Assembly: GCA_020853395.1 (NCBI GenBank)
Contig: JADYYY010000015.1
Span: forward strand, 1 to 64,000
Direction: 5' to 3'
Source: Acidobacteriota bacterium
Lineage (GTDB): Bacteria; Acidobacteriota; Vicinamibacteria; Vicinamibacterales; SCN-69-37
Length of the DNA: 64,000 bases
Made by a program: the position numbers and the translations under genes. The notes beneath the pieces are model-generated. The model was not told where the DNA came from. It saw only the letters and a program-made list of their open reading frames with translations, and made no database searches. Shown here piece by piece: positions 4,100-10,796 of this stretch (position 1 is its first letter; each line of letters begins with the position of its first letter).

Positions 4100-4883
4100 C
4101 GGGTTCAAGAGCGTTCAGAATCGTCACGGCCGCGCCGCGGATTCGTTCCAGCGAGGCCAGCAGGGCGTCACGATCGCCGCGGTACTGGTGGATGTAGTCA
4201 CGGGCTGCATCGGCAACCTGGAGACCGACGGCTTCACCGACCACGAACGCGACGGCTTGGCTTCGAGCTCACGCTGGTCGCGTGAAGTGGGACGGTTGGC
4301 GGAACGATGCCGCAGCTCATGGCCGTACTCGTGAACGAGCACGACGAACTCTTCGGCGTGGGACAGACCGCTCAGAATCTTGATGCGCCCGCCGAGTGAC
4401 ACACCGTGCGCACCGTCCAGATCGGCGGTAACCTCGATCGCGATTCCCTGCTTCACGATCGCGGCACACAAGGGCGAGCGTGCGGTCGCCGGGATCGCCG
4501 AAGGCGGCTGACGCTTCGGGTAGAGGCTCACCGTCCGTCTGCGCGACGTCGAACACATGCGCAGCTCTGAAGCCGGCCACGCACGTCTCGTCGTCAGTGT
4601 CGTCGCGTCGGCGGCGCGTGACGATCGGGGCAAGGATGACGATACCCTTCTCGCCTCTGCGAACGAAGCAACCGAGCGAACGCCAAGTGTGGAAGCCGGC
4701 CACGCGCGTGGCCGCAGGGCGCTGCGCCGCGATCAAGCAAACGTTGTGGAAGCTGTAGCGATGGAAGCGTGCCATCGCCTTCAAGAGCGCGGTGAGCTGG
4801 TCGCTCGGTCCCGCATCGAGCAAGGCGGCAAGTCCATCGAGGGCGTCGGTCGTGAACTGCTTGAGCGTGTCGGCGGTCCTGAT
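4100..4883 (-). pseudogene. ArdC-like antirestriction/ssDNA-binding protein, frameshifted
   Basis: Three minus-strand frames together rebuild one ArdC-family protein of roughly 260 residues. The first frame (about 4883 to 4485) gives the N-terminal ssDNA-binding domain: DTLKQFTTDALDGLAALL, FHRYSFHNVCLIAAQRP, VAGFHTWRSLG, GEKGIVILAPI, VFDVAQTDGEPLP. The second frame (about 4480 to 4262) gives the metallopeptidase-like part, with HEYGH at 4319-4333 as the HExxH zinc motif and RELEA downstream. The third frame (about 4250 to 4100) gives VGEAVGLQVADAARDYIHQYRGD and ASLERIRGAAVTIL. The frame changes are near 4480 and near 4255. The likely ancestral start codon is ATC (4881-4883) behind a strong AGGAGGA site, so the initiator may be mutated too. 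ArdC genes usually travel on plasmids and integrative elements, which fits the decayed element seen here. Confidence 0.85.
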
Positions 4884-5171
4884 GTCTCCTCCTGTGAACG
4901 GGCGGTCCGTGGTTCCTTTACGACCGGAGGAACTCGACCGCCCGTCAGGAGGACACGGGCAGGTCTCACCACGTGGCGGCATGCTGCGGCACCGGGCGTG
5001 CCAGCGGTTCTGGCTGGCGCGAAGCCTCGCGGCCGGTGATCCGCGGCGGGTGACGCCACGTCTCGACCTGCCGTTCATCGCCGACCATCAATCAGTTGTC
5101 GGATACGTGCAGGCGTTGTTCGATGTGCCGGCTATGAAGGAGCCTGGGGACGTGGAGCGGATCGACTGCGC

Positions 5172-6269: not shown

Positions 6270-7023
6270 ACTGTCCCGAGCTCTCCCACGCCCGGCGGAC
6301 TTCGGCTTCCAACATCGTCTGACGCGCCTTCACCCACGGCGCGTAGTGCCCTTCGGTGACCTTGATCGAGCTGTGCCCGCGGAGCTTGGAGACATTCTCC
6401 AGCGAGACCCGTTCAGCAAGAGCGATACCGCGAACGTGTCGCGGAACCGGTGCGAGTGCGCGTTCCCGACGTTGGCGAGTTCAAACAGCGTGTCCAGATA
6501 GCGCGACCAGTTCGCGCGGGCCGTCTGCGGCTTGGCATCGCCCGTCGAAAAGTACCGTCCGTTCGTGTTCGTGTCGAGCGCGGCCAGCGCGCTGATGACG
6601 ACTTCCGGCAGCGGCACGTAGACGGGCGTCCCGGTCTTTGCCGTGTAGAGAAGAAGCTTGTTGCCGTCCACACGTGCGTCGTCGAGCGCAATCGTGTCGC
6701 CGATCCGCAGATCCGACTGCCGCATCACCAGCACGAACGCGCGCACGCGGTCGCGATTGCCGGGATAGCGATCGCACGCCTCGAGGATGCGCCGCATCTC
6801 CGAGTCGGTGAACGGAAGCGTCGGCGTGGCCTTGACTTTCGGCGCCTTCACCCGGCGACCCGGGTTCTTGGTCACCCAATCGTCCTCCATGCAGAATCGA
6901 AAGAACGCGCGCAGCCGCTCGAGATTCTTCGTCGCGTAGTTCGCGCCATCGGTCCACGTTGCGCGGAACTGCCGCATCTGCTCGACGCTGAGCTGTTTCA
7001 GATACCGAAAGAAAAGGGCCCTC
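6270..7023 (-). pseudogene. Tyrosine recombinase (integrase), truncated and frameshifted
   Basis: The frame from about 7023 to 6410 gives the core-binding domain (FRYLKQLSVEQMRQFR, KNLERLRAFFRFC) and most of the catalytic domain: LRIGDTIAL with the first catalytic Arg, KTGTPVYVPLP, and HSHRFRDTFAV with the His-x-x-Arg box. At 6408-6410 one base is missing from a GGG run. The other frame then supplies VSLENVSKLRGHSS and TEGHYAPWVKARQ, with the nucleophile Tyr codon at 6343-6345, followed by EAEVRRAWES. At the 5' side the frame is closed by a TAG at 7024-7026, inside the first GGTACA repeat, so about 90 N-terminal residues (the arm-binding and first core helices) are absent. The gene stands next to the left att repeat, where an island integrase belongs, but cannot be active as written. 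Confidence 0.85.
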
Positions 7024-7024
7024 T

Positions 7025-7045
7025 AGGTACAGAACAGGTACAGCG
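7025..7045. repeat. GGTACA double repeat, copy 1
   Basis: The motif AGGTACA-GAAC-AGGTACAGCG contains two AGGTACA half repeats. It lies 53 nt to the left of the left att repeat, between it and the truncated integrase. Near-identical motifs lie at 7204-7224 and 10642-10662. Copies 1 and 3 sit at almost the same distance from an att repeat, so these are good candidates for integrase or excisionase arm sites. Confidence 0.7.
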
Positions 7046-7098: not shown

Positions 7099-7119
7099 TG
7101 GCGGAGAGGGTGGGATTCG
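7099..7119. repeat. Left att repeat (21-bp copy of a tRNA-Ser end)
   Basis: The 21 bases, which begin with TGGCGGAGAGGGTGGGATTC, are identical to 10707-10727. That stretch is the T-arm and acceptor end of the tRNA-Ser(CGA) gene plus 3 flanking bases. Similarity stops abruptly on both sides. A perfect copy of a tRNA 3' end 3.6 kb away from the intact gene is the standard footprint of site-specific integration. Confidence 0.9.
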
Positions 7120-7245: not shown

Positions 7246-8151
7246 TCAGATGTTGATGCCAACGGCCGCAAGTCGTGTCGCTAGGTCTCGCGCCTCCTTC
7301 GGATGCCCCTGAGTTCGCAGGTAGTTCAGTCGACCCCGCAGCCTGTTGATCTGCTTGTCTTGGATCGGCAGGCCGTCACGCCGGCGGCACAAGACTTCGT
7401 GGACATTCGCCCGAACGTTTGCGCGCTTGGCACGCGGAAGGCGAAGGACCCGTCCACTCACAGTTCGACCGGTGACAATCTGCACGCGCTGACGGCTGGC
7501 GTTGAAAACCTTGCGACGCTTCACCGCAAAGCCGAGCGACTGTATCAACGCAACGATGGGCAGGAACGCGTGTCGCGTCCGTTGGCCGGAAAAATCGATG
7601 TTGTCCACATACCGCGTGATCTTCAGGTCCAATTCGACCGCAATGCGCTCGAGTTCGACGTCGATCGGCGAAAGGATGAGGTTGGCAAGGGCGCCGCTCG
7701 TGGGCGCGCCATGCGGAAGGTGACCGCGAGAGGTCGTTAGCCCCGTGAGCAAGTCAGCGAGACTGTCGCCAAGCCGAAGTGTGTGACGAAACACGCGAAA
7801 GACCATCGCGTTTGTCATGCTGTTGTAGCAGTCTCGGATATCTGCAGAGCCGACGTTCGCCTGATGGAGATGACGCTCAGCATTCTGGGCTGCCGAGTGA
7901 CCCGGCACATCGCTGTAGACGATCGGGGAGAGCGGAATCGGCAGGAGGAGTCGCTCGCGGATGGACCGCTGGACTGCCTTCAACTCATCACACGGGTTCG
8001 AGATGTCTCGGACCTTACGGTTGATCTCGACTCTCCTGACGCTATACAGGTCCTCGGGCACCATCCCGGCGAGCAGCCGCAGCCGGTCGACCGGATGCCG
8101 AAGTTCAAAAGACAACCAGGCGTCCGAGTAGTGGTCCACCGGTGAACGCAT
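7246..8151 (-). CDS. Retron-like reverse transcriptase with YVDN box
   Basis: A 301-residue reverse transcriptase with most features of the retron clade. The fingers region has VEINRKVRDISNP and KAVQRSIRERLLLPIP. PGHSAAQNAERH (NAxxH at 90-94) is the retron-specific motif. Motif A is SADIRDCY (Asp104), motif B is LPHGAPTSGALANLIL (145-160), and the catalytic box is YVDN at 181-184 (nucleotides 7600-7611) instead of YxDD. VQIVTG (VTG at 226-228) is the second retron hallmark, and the thumb ends in RLRGRLNYLRT. I chose the ATG at 8151: it overlaps the XRE stop by one base (TGATG), and the longer open frame merely shadows the XRE gene. Retron reverse transcriptases make a branched or linked multicopy ssDNA from an adjacent ncRNA and usually act in phage defence. 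The Asn in place of the second Asp may lower or abolish polymerisation. Confidence 0.85.
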   Translation of the reverse strand: MRSPVDHYSDAWLSFELRHPVDRLRLLAGMVPEDLYSVRRVEINRKVRDISNPCDELKAVQRSIRERLLLPIPLSPIVYSDVPGHSAAQNAERHLHQANVGSADIRDCYNSMTNAMVFRVFRHTLRLGDSLADLLTGLTTSRGHLPHGAPTSGALANLILSPIDVELERIAVELDLKITRYVDNIDFSGQRTRHAFLPIVALIQSLGFAVKRRKVFNASRQRVQIVTGRTVSGRVLRLPRAKRANVRANVHEVLCRRRDGLPIQDKQINRLRGRLNYLRTQGHPKEARDLATRLAAVGINI

Positions 8152-8489
8152 CAGGCGGGTCTCTTCTTCCGGCTTGTTTTCAACAAAGGCAGCACCGGCT
8201 GCTCTCCGGCGGCGACCAGCACGCGCACGAGCGATCGAGCCAATTCGGCGACCTGCTCCGCGTTCTTCGGATCGTCGAGGTCGCCGGGTTCGGAAGCCAG
8301 CAACGCCAGGAGATGCGGTGGAATCCTGAGCACGCCAGAAATCTCGTCGAGCACTTCCACACTGGGCTTTCGCTGCCCGCGTTCGATGAGACTGAGGTGG
8401 CTCGCACCGATGCTCAGCTGTCTCGCCAGTTGGGCCTTCGTCAAACCGTGCGCGGTTCTGACGATCCTGATTGCTCGACCAAAATTCAT
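8151..8489 (-). CDS. XRE/Cro-CI-type regulator upstream of the reverse transcriptase
   Basis: A 112-residue protein with an N-terminal helix-turn-helix of the Cro/CI type at residues 5-60 (AIRIVRTAHGLTKAQLARQL, SIGASHLSLIERGQRKPSVE, LDEISGVLRIPPHLL). A mostly helical C-terminal tail (NAEQVAELARSLVRVLVAAG) follows and ends in basic residues. The ATG at 8489 has an AGGAAG site at good spacing. Its stop overlaps the start of the reverse transcriptase gene, so translation is coupled. It could regulate the cassette, or be the accessory protein of the retron; some retron classes are described as having an HTH accessory gene. I cannot separate these options from sequence alone. Confidence 0.85.
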   Translation of the reverse strand: MNFGRAIRIVRTAHGLTKAQLARQLSIGASHLSLIERGQRKPSVEVLDEISGVLRIPPHLLALLASEPGDLDDPKNAEQVAELARSLVRVLVAAGEQPVLPLLKTSRKKRPA

Positions 8490-8583
8490 CGGGCTTCCTG
8501 TGTACCAAAATGCAGTTACTAGACCAACTCTGTTCTCGCCCGTTCGCGCTCCGTCGTCTTCACTCCCTCAACAACCGTCGCAG

Positions 8584-9087
8584 CTATTTCCGCAACAGTT
8601 CTTCGCATACGATCTTGCTGATCTCCGCGATCAGCTCGGTGACTCGTTTGCGGGAAGCCTTCGATCGCGATCCCCCTTTCATTTCGGCTTCCAACTTGTG
8701 AAACACGCACCGAAGTTGGTTCTGCTGAACTAGCTCCGCCCCTCTCGACGAGAGCAGGCGATGAACCATCGCCAACATCTCGTCCGCACCCTGAAACAGT
8801 TTCATGGTCTTCGCGCTCCAACGGTTCCAGACAACGGAGAAGTCCGTTGCTGTCCCGTCTGGCGGGTCCGGGAAGGTTCCGTATAGCAAGAGGGTGAAGC
8901 GTTGGTCTAGCACTCCAGATTCCGCAATGAAGCGGAATCGTTTCTGCTGGCGGTTCAAGGGCCTGAGGTCAGGACGGCGATTGCTTGCGGCCTCCCGGCA
9001 TTCCCGGTACTGCAAAATGCTTCCCGGCCATGATTCGGCCGAGAGACTTCGTCTCCCTCTCTCCGTTCGCAGGTTCACGGCCGGCAC
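8584..9087 (-). CDS. Unknown protein of the retron-like cassette
   Basis: A 167-residue open frame that I do not recognise. The part after residue about 45 looks like genuine protein: QQKRFRFIAESGVLDQRFTL, YGTFPDPPDGTATDFSVVWN and LFQGADEMLAMVHRLLSSRG. A basic segment (KGGSRSKASRKRV) and a C-terminal amphipathic helix (ELIAEISKIVCEELL) follow. No signal peptide or transmembrane helix is seen. It lies 94 nt upstream of the XRE gene on the same strand, so it is probably the first gene of an operon with XRE and the reverse transcriptase. The N-terminal 40 residues are low-complexity and the real start may be internal. In retron systems such a neighbour can be the effector; that role is speculative here. 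Confidence 0.55.
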   Translation of the reverse strand: MPAVNLRTERGRRSLSAESWPGSILQYRECREAASNRRPDLRPLNRQQKRFRFIAESGVLDQRFTLLLYGTFPDPPDGTATDFSVVWNRWSAKTMKLFQGADEMLAMVHRLLSSRGAELVQQNQLRCVFHKLEAEMKGGSRSKASRKRVTELIAEISKIVCEELLRK

Positions 9088-9279
9088 GATCGCCGAGCCG
9101 CGCGGCGAACAAACTCGCGTTCGCCGCCATCAAGAGGGCCCTATCGGACCCGTCCTATGAACCTTCCCCCGACATTCGTCGGGACCATGTTTTCAAAGAG
9201 CACGGTCGCTCATCCGGTTCGGATGATCGCCAGTAAGTCTAGGTGGTCCTCGACCCCGAGTCAATATGTTGTGGTGCTG
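9088..9279 (-). other. Hairpin-rich intergenic region, candidate structured RNA
   Basis: Between the divergent unknown ORF and the winged-helix gene there are three strong hairpins. Positions 9102-9127 have a 9-bp stem (GCGGCGAAC with GTTCGCCGC) and an 8-nt loop. Positions 9168-9183 have CCCGAC and GTCGGG around a 4-nt loop. Positions 9210-9226 have TCATCCG and CGGATGA around a 3-nt loop. No long T-run follows them. If transcribed on the minus strand, the region would form the 5' leader of the unknown ORF-XRE-reverse transcriptase operon. That makes it the best place in the element for a retron-type msr-msd RNA. I could not identify the a1/a2 pairing or a branching G, so this stays a candidate. 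Confidence 0.35.
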
Positions 9280-9300
9280 AAAGTCACTAATAGTGACTTT
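9280..9300. promoter_or_regulatory. Perfect 21-bp palindrome (operator candidate)
   Basis: The arms AAAGTCACTA and TAGTGACTTT are fully complementary around a single A. The site lies in the divergent promoter region, about 30 nt upstream of the -35 element of the winged-helix gene and upstream of the minus-strand operon. A regulator dimer such as the XRE protein could control both directions from here. The choice of regulator is inference. Confidence 0.6.
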
Positions 9301-9362: not shown

Positions 9363-9887
9363 ATGCCTCGCGCACTGCTTCCGCAGGACGTAGTGGTGCT
9401 TGCCAAGCTCGTCAGCCTGAGCGGCAGACGGCCACCCATCGCCCAGCTCGCTGGCGAGCTCTCGATGAGCTCCTCGCAGATTCATCTATCCCTCAAGAGA
9501 CTCAAGCAAGCTCGCCTGATCAATGGGGATTCGCGACCCCTCCTGCAACCCGTCGAGGAGTTCCTCGTCCACGGCGTGAAGTACGCATTCCCGCCCCAAC
9601 GCGGTGAAGTGACTCGCGGCATGCCGACCGCTCACGCCGCGCCGCCACTCAGTGAAGCGTTTGCGGAGAGTTCCGATCCTCCACCAGTCTGGCCATCTCC
9701 CGAAGGTCGCGTCCGCGGAAGCACCTTCGAGCCGCTTCACAAGATTGTGCCTGCCGCGGCAGCGAAGGACCCGCTGCTCTATCAACTTCTCGCATTGGTC
9801 GATGCGTTGCGAGACGGCCGCGCGCGCGAGCGACAAGCCGCGGAACGGGAGCTGACCGCTTTGCTGCGAAAGTGTCTGCGTGGTTGA
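9363..9887 (+). CDS. Winged-helix DNA-binding protein paired with a nucleotidyltransferase
   Basis: A 174-residue protein whose first 65 residues form a MarR/AbiEi-like winged helix: LLPQDVVVLAKLVSL, PIAQLAGELSMSSSQIHLSL, KRLKQARLING. A linker segment LLQPVEEFLVHGVKYAFPPQ follows, then a variable middle and a C-terminal helical part (PLLYQLLALVDALRDGRARE, RQAAERELTALL). It precedes the nucleotidyltransferase gene and overlaps it by 8 nt. This order, a DNA-binding protein first and a nucleotidyltransferase second, is that of AbiE-like toxin-antitoxin modules, although I cannot show that it neutralises anything. The promoter next to it carries a palindrome that fits autoregulation. No ribosome site is seen because the mRNA is probably leaderless. 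Confidence 0.75.
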   Translation: MPRALLPQDVVVLAKLVSLSGRRPPIAQLAGELSMSSSQIHLSLKRLKQARLINGDSRPLLQPVEEFLVHGVKYAFPPQRGEVTRGMPTAHAAPPLSEAFAESSDPPPVWPSPEGRVRGSTFEPLHKIVPAAAAKDPLLYQLLALVDALRDGRARERQAAERELTALLRKCLRG

Positions 9888-10572
9888 TCCAAATCGGGCG
9901 CTATTCGAGACCGTCTTAAATCTGCTTCGTCCGCTTCTCGAGGAACTTGTGTTCGTTGGTGGCTGTGCGACCGGCCTATTGGTCTCAGATCCGGCCGCTG
10001 GCGGGATTCGACCAACGAAAGATGTGGATGCGATCGTCGATGTCACCTCCTATACGAAATACGCGGCCCTATCCGAGCGCCTCCGGGCACTGGGCCTCGC
10101 AGAAGACTCGACAAAGGGCGCCCCTCTCTGCCGCTGGCGCTACCAGGAGCTAATCGTCGACGTGATGCCGATTGACGAAGAGATTCTTGGCTTCAGCAAT
10201 CGCTGGTACCAGCAGGCGATCGCGTCCGCAGAAAGACGGTCAATCGGAGGAATGGACTTCCGGCTCGTCACGCCCGTCTATTTCGTGGCGACGAAGTTCG
10301 AGGCGTTTCACGGGCGCGGGACGGATGACCTGGCGATGAGCCACGACCTTGAAGACGTCATTACACTCGTCGACGGCCGACCAGAACTCATCGCCGAGAT
10401 CGCCGCCGCCGGGCCAGCGGTCCGCGAGTACATCGCGTCCGAGGTTCGGACGCTTCTCAATTCGCAGGACTTTGTGGACGCCCTCCCTGGTTTTCTCCTG
10501 CCAGACGCCGGCAGTCAAGCGAGGCGATCGAAACTCGTCGAACGACTCCACAGCATCGCAAGTCTGGCCTGA
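9880..10572 (+). CDS. Nucleotidyltransferase (AbiEii/MNT-like)
   Basis: A 230-residue protein with a polymerase-beta-type nucleotidyltransferase core. The glycine motif is LVFVGGCATGLL. The metal-binding aspartates are in TKDVDAIVDV. A third acidic strand is LIVDVMPID, and LATKFEAFxGRG-type helices follow (YFVATKFEAFHGRG, then HDLEDVITLVDGR). The start is GTG at 9880, inside the last codons of the winged-helix gene, so the two are translationally coupled. Proteins of this type transfer a nucleotide to RNA, protein or small molecules; those in AbiE modules block tRNA function. Similar pairs are also found scattered in Acidobacteria outside obvious islands, so a housekeeping or antibiotic-modifying role cannot be excluded. 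Confidence 0.8.
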   Translation: MVDPNRALFETVLNLLRPLLEELVFVGGCATGLLVSDPAAGGIRPTKDVDAIVDVTSYTKYAALSERLRALGLAEDSTKGAPLCRWRYQELIVDVMPIDEEILGFSNRWYQQAIASAERRSIGGMDFRLVTPVYFVATKFEAFHGRGTDDLAMSHDLEDVITLVDGRPELIAEIAAAGPAVREYIASEVRTLLNSQDFVDALPGFLLPDAGSQARRSKLVERLHSIASLA

Positions 10573-10706: not shown

Positions 10707-10727
10707 TGGCGGAGAGGGTGGGATTCG
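10707..10727. repeat. Right att repeat within the tRNA-Ser 3' end
   Basis: This 21-bp stretch is identical to 7099-7119. It covers the acceptor 3' strand and part of the T-arm of tRNA-Ser(CGA), plus 3 bases beyond the gene. Integration here keeps the tRNA gene intact because the element supplies the same bases. Confidence 0.9.
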
Positions 10728-10796
10728 AACCCACGTGCCCTTGTGAGGCAAGACGCTTTCGAGGCGCCCCCGTTATGACCACTTCGGTACCTCTCC
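10710..10796 (-). tRNA. tRNA-Ser (anticodon CGA)
   Basis: The minus strand folds into an 87-nt class II tRNA. The acceptor stem is GGAGAGG with CCTCTCC. The anticodon stem GGCGC with GCGTC holds the loop CTCGAAA, so the anticodon is CGA (10759-10761), reading UCG serine codons. A long variable arm (TTGCCTC to GGGCA region) is typical of serine tRNAs. The T-arm is GTGGG-TTCGAAT-CCCAC and the discriminator base is G. CCA is not encoded. Its 3' end is the integration site of the element to its left. Confidence 0.95.

Follow-up and report, generated by a model that had tools for sequence, protein, structure and literature searches.

A type VI retron of Acidobacteriota whose reverse transcriptase carries Asp-Asn in place of the Asp-Asp of motif C

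Retrons are small anti-phage operons in which an RNA of the system's own is copied into DNA, and the Asp-Asp of the YxDD box, a signature of working reverse transcriptases (RTs), is used to sort live copies from dead ones. Retron RTs are further marked by the motifs NAxxH and VTG (PMC4244168). Early work on retroviral RTs found the loss of any of three Asp residues to be severely disruptive, and the Ty1 RT is blocked by D211E or by loss of either of the other two Asp; Ty1 D211N, in which the second Asp of YxDD is replaced, remains active as a polymerase in vitro, with a kpol 223-fold lower, unchanged dNTP affinity and a preference for Mn2+, and no longer supports transposition in vivo (PMC2148107). 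Polymerases of the Birnaviridae and Mononegavirales naturally have Asn at the second motif C Asp (PMC4634563). The crystal structure of a CRISPR-associated RT has its metal bound through the first Asp alone alongside residues of motif A, and the double-Asn mutant of that enzyme is inactive (PMC10415136). Within the LPQG of motif B, HIV Q151 lies in the pocket for the dNTP 3'-OH (PMC4213578). We found no description of YxDN in a bacterial RT in the open-access literature.

Judged by its sequence, the YVDN-containing RT of the window (the whole 64,000-nucleotide stretch that was analysed) is part of an apparently complete type VI retron with operon and leader intact, the assignment of the small protein being probable (Table 1). 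The order is structured RNA leader, small protein, XRE-family HTH protein and RT, with the HTH gene adjoining the RT gene. RT_VI is the best PADLOC model for the RT by ~11 orders of magnitude, the Pfam RVT_1 score is slightly sub-threshold (27.2 against a cut-off of 29.6 bits), and a PADLOC model search of the genome gave no second RT_VI match. A mechanically called ORF at 7246-8508 is too long, as the HTH gene lies in a different frame of that interval; the ATG at 8151, which has one base in common with the HTH stop codon (TGATG), is the most likely RT start. HTH homologues lie upstream of other type VI RTs too, and our tree places the window RT among the HTH-linked RTs (88/87). A small-protein ORF is present at the equivalent place in other type VI loci. 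PADLOC includes SP_VI models, which makes such a protein a recognised component of this retron type; weak matches to them were obtained for two relatives and none, even at E 10, for the window small protein. Two relatives recur below: L043 (also recorded as L038), from Acidobacteria MAG ND5_Bin_16_1, whose host belongs to the order of the window genome but to a different family, and L037, a type VI retron from the window's own family.

Table 1. Features of the retron locus and its surroundings (window coordinates)
Feature	Position	Strand	Details
Type VI retron RT	7246..8151	-	301 aa; stop codon 7246-7248; PADLOC RT_VI E 2.9e-55
XRE-family HTH protein of type VI retrons	8151..8489	-	112 aa; PADLOC HTH_VI E 7.1e-21
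Small protein, probable type VI SP	8584..8805	-	73 aa; phmmer 7.8e-11 to L043, 3.2e-4 to L037
Motif C YVDN	7600..7611	-	codons TAT GTG GAC AAC, read 7611-7600; N184 = AAC at 7600-7602
Motif B H147, PHG for PQG	7711..7713	-	window reads LPHGAPTS; Gln in 21/22 other aligned RTs
Motif A catalytic Asp, D104	7840..7842	-	intact
D186, acidic, two places past N184	7594..7596	-	common to the two YxDN enzymes only (alignment)
NAxxH, retron region X motif, N90-H94	7870..7884	-	alignment
VTG, retron region Y motif, residues 226-228	7468..7476	-	alignment
RNA leader hairpin TCATCCG-AAC-CGGATGA	9210..9226	-	hairpins at this position in most of the 13 type VI loci compared
Conserved single-stranded element CTCTTTGAAAAC, 3' of hairpin	9189..9200	-	comparison with relatives
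Promoter-like TTGACT-17 nt-TAGACT, upstream of leader	9236..9264	-	equivalent arrangement in relatives
Palindrome GTCACTAATAGTGAC, likely HTH operator	9283..9297	.	sole window match, 0 expected
Long-range inverted repeat, left arm	8901..8912	-	repeat pair encloses small-protein gene
Long-range inverted repeat, right arm	8517..8528	-	repeat pair encloses small-protein gene
Attachment-like repeat	7099..7119	.	exact 21-bp copy of one tRNA-Ser gene end
tRNA-Ser gene (cga)	10707..10796	-	end 10707-10727 = other repeat copy

The leader's layout of promoter, hairpin and CTTTGAA element recurs in other type VI loci, the element being kept together with the other two, and across loci the hairpin sequences are unrelated while the pairing is kept: stem scores over 13 loci sum to 226, compared with 141.5 ± 9.4 for shuffled leaders (maximum of 171 in 500 shuffles). 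The leader, a candidate msr-msd RNA, has no match in Rfam, a tRNA being the sole Rfam match. Palindromes of a similar type are found ahead of the promoter in L043, L066, L085 and L086, and the HTH protein would bind the corresponding palindrome, GTCACTAATAGTGAC, in the window. The inverted repeats around the small-protein gene could be a1/a2 arms or mRNA structure; their pairing sum is 339 against 281.7 ± 9.8 in shuffles, and L043 has no clear repeat of this kind. Such repeats, differing in sequence with the pairing kept, are also found in L066, L086 and L094; that of L067 falls inside the small-protein gene and was dropped from the count.

Re-reading the minus strand bore out the Tyr-Val-Asp-Asn reported in an earlier note, together with its claim that the motif A Asp, NAxxH and VTG are intact. 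The same note had described motif B as intact, which proved wrong, as the near-invariant Gln of PQG is replaced by His147; among the other 22 aligned retron RTs this position is Gln in 21 and Thr in one. Of the three Asp residues of a canonical RT, D104 and D183 are thus present and the third is N184. The AlphaFold2 model (alignment of 15 RTs; pLDDT 89.4, pTM 0.79) has the right-hand RT fold, with motif C predicted as a strand-turn-strand at 177-188. Its nearest solved folds are retron RTs (Z 20-26), with the Ec86 RT first (Foldseek 3.2e-19), and in the sequence alignment with Ec86, N184 faces the second Asp of YADD and H147 faces Gln.

A survey of the phylum Acidobacteriota (1,778 genome searches, repeats counted) yielded 15 further HTH-linked type VI RTs. 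L043 is a retron RT with LPHGAPTS and YLDN, and its codons at the two altered places, CAT (His) and AAC (Asn), are those of the window; L037 has LPQG and YVDD. In a motif C census of 66 distinct RT ORFs, centred on Acidobacteriota and weak outside the phylum, Asp-Asp was read in 63 and Asp-Asn in two (the window and L043), with one unreadable. None of the 66, the two YxDN enzymes included, lacks the motif A Asp, and PHG is confined to these two. Compared with the other 22 aligned RTs, the window and L043 have three fixed differences, H147, N184 and D175, in columns dominated by one residue, and both retain the first motif C Asp (D183), D104, NAxxH, VTG and the motif D Lys (K214). Viral contigs held no relative when searched with the window RT alone or with the two-row YxDN alignment, and with a wider alignment only other retrons, with YADD; among the matches inspected in plasmid and phage searches there was no type VI retron. 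Scanning genome contigs with two patterns outside the catalytic motifs returned L043 only, although such a scan is a poor gauge of YxDN frequency. Elsewhere in type VI RTs the Tyr of YxDD varies with Asp-Asp kept, as FVDD, WVDD, WIDD and LVDD in L003, L004, L085, L086 and L094, and one HTH-linked RT, L084 (also L014 and L069), has LPTGSCIS in motif B and YMDD in motif C.

The YxDN type does not track host families, which fits horizontal transfer. In the window, exact 21-bp direct repeats bound a 3.6-kb islet that holds the retron and the plus-strand ORFs 9363-9887 and 9880-10572. The latter (230 aa) has no convincing Pfam match and a likeness by eye to AbiEii-type nucleotidyltransferases, and a possible HTH protein is encoded ahead of it at 9363-9887. 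Another repeat, AGGTACA(G/A)AACAGGTACAGCG, occurs at 7025, 7204 and 10642 (81%). Just beyond the repeat at 7099 lies a Phage_integrase-family ORF, 6330-6977 (-), and L043 likewise has a Phage_integrase ORF (4314-4976) upstream of its retron. An ArdC N-terminal domain (anti-restriction; E 4.3e-10) was found at 4317-5078 (-), its frame apparently divided between ORFs 4317-5078 (-) and 4124-4633.

The earlier note had also proposed a variant clade that works with Asp-Asn, to be set aside if all near relatives had YxDD. In the tree of near relatives L043 shares the Asn, and the window and L043 form one clade (99/97) with the PQG and YVDD enzyme L037 as sister (99/98); removal of the columns of H147, D175 and 181-186 left the clade at 95/91 and the L037 sister relationship at 100/98. 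Parsimony on the RT tree requires one DD-to-DN change, and the phylogeny shows the motif C Asp to Asn and motif B Gln to His changes as having arisen once, in the common ancestor, and then been inherited. The clade part of the proposal is thereby supported: the YxDN box arose by evolution of a variant rather than by accidental mutation.

Divergence within the pair is considerable. The two RTs are 39-41% identical overall, with the blocks around motif B best conserved (75%), and agreement at codon positions 1, 2 and 3 is 47, 61 and 37%. The NG86 estimates are dN 0.71 and dS 1.77, a ratio of ~0.4 that is only indicative, as dS is near saturation. At 23 strongly conserved columns the window departs at six, L043 at four and the YVDD sister L037 at four, compared with 1-3 in most other type VI RTs and 10 of 23-26 in the YMDD enzyme L084; the extra departures of the window RT are Y35L, G80S and P110N. 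Some loosening of the RT thus predates or accompanies the DD-to-DN change, and the pattern does not look like free decay.

Four other accounts of the Asn have to be weighed. An Asp to Asn replacement needs one base change, such as a base-call or assembly error at 7600-7602 would supply, but an independent MAG (L043) has the identical Asn codon AAC and His codon CAT. The extra departures of the window RT might suit a decaying gene with a recent inactivating mutation; however, both the Asn and the His are present in this distant homologue, all 301 codons are open, and the flanking genes and promoter are intact. We take the Asn and His shared with L043 to exclude both accounts, such that recent inactivation is very improbable and an error close to negligible. 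Altered nucleotidyl transfer could have replaced msDNA synthesis, giving for example very short, untemplated or ribonucleotide-tolerant products, and the changes do cluster in the dNTP/metal pocket (Q147, N184, D175 and D186, with Q147 at the position of HIV Q151; PMC4213578), yet the leader RNA is similar to that of YxDD relatives, and we consider this unlikely. Less easily dismissed, though still doubtful, is that the YxDN clade no longer polymerises and that the RT has become a scaffold that binds the structured RNA, its partner proteins (the HTH protein, the small protein), or both. It would be a natural retron clade without DNA synthesis, whose sensing particle consists of RNA and protein only. 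The active site has changed jointly at two of its most conserved positions, a double Asn replacement inactivates other RTs (PMC10415136), and the RNA-binding motifs NAxxH and VTG are retained along with the leader RNA. Against a scaffold, D104 and D183, which would then be free to drift, are kept in both enzymes together with K214 over ~2 substitutions per site, and the best conserved block is motif B around the His.

We favour over the scaffold, with a probability of about 0.58, a slow, possibly Mn2+-favouring working RT, because the engineered Asp-Asn change of Ty1 keeps in vitro activity and prefers Mn2+. A working enzyme is supported by YxDN being shared with L043, whose genome is independent and belongs to another family, and by the retention of operon, promoter, leader hairpin, CTTTGAA element and operator. 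Counting against it are the Asp at this site in every other RT found (63/63), the in vivo failure of Ty1 D211N and the early retroviral results (PMC2148107), the loss of a second near-invariant residue, Q147, and the departures of the window RT at 6/23 conserved columns, more than the 1-3 of most type VI RTs, though L037 (YVDD) has four and L084 (YMDD) 10. As a slow RT, the enzyme would still copy the retron's RNA into DNA; D104 and D183 would bind metal, and Asn184 would act as an uncharged ligand or form a hydrogen bond. Polymerisation would probably be slower and perhaps Mn2+-preferring. The dNTP/metal pocket may be re-tuned by His147 together with two acids specific to the clade, D175 and D186, and we infer that the second change in the active-site pocket is compensatory. 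On this view the Asp-Asn RT would be naturally selected, with its pocket re-tuned at H147, D175 and D186. The RT-RNA-DNA particle would keep the accessory proteins inactive until phage disturbance, a step suggested for type VI by analogy with other retrons.

Kept since a common ancestor with a matching change in motif B, the Asp-Asn pair is a natural experiment on the role of the second Asp, and the clade offers a direct test of whether a retron needs DNA synthesis. It also cautions against declaring such enzymes dead by motif alone.

Among known systems, the birnavirus and Mononegavirales polymerases resemble the window RT in having natural Asn in motif C of working palm-domain enzymes (PMC4634563), but these are RNA-dependent RNA polymerases, kin to retrons through the palm fold only. 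Ty1 RT D211N likewise has Asn for the second YxDD Asp and is active in vitro with Mn2+ preferred; unlike the window RT it is engineered, with motif B unchanged and transposition lost in vivo (PMC2148107). The closest solved structure by both sequence (E ~7e-23) and fold (Z 26.3) is the retron Ec86 RT (PDB 7V9X, 7V9U), which has LPQGAPSS and YADD and differs in its accessory genes. The type VI retrons, as defined by the PADLOC models RT_VI, HTH_VI and SP_VI, agree with the window in the best models for RT and HTH protein, in gene order and in the HTH/RT overlap, the window small protein falling short of a match to SP_VI. The other type VI RTs of this survey keep Asp-Asp, and Gln in all but one, whereas the window RT differs by PHG and YxDN; on the evidence of this survey, that combination is variation within known type VI retrons, with two members seen.
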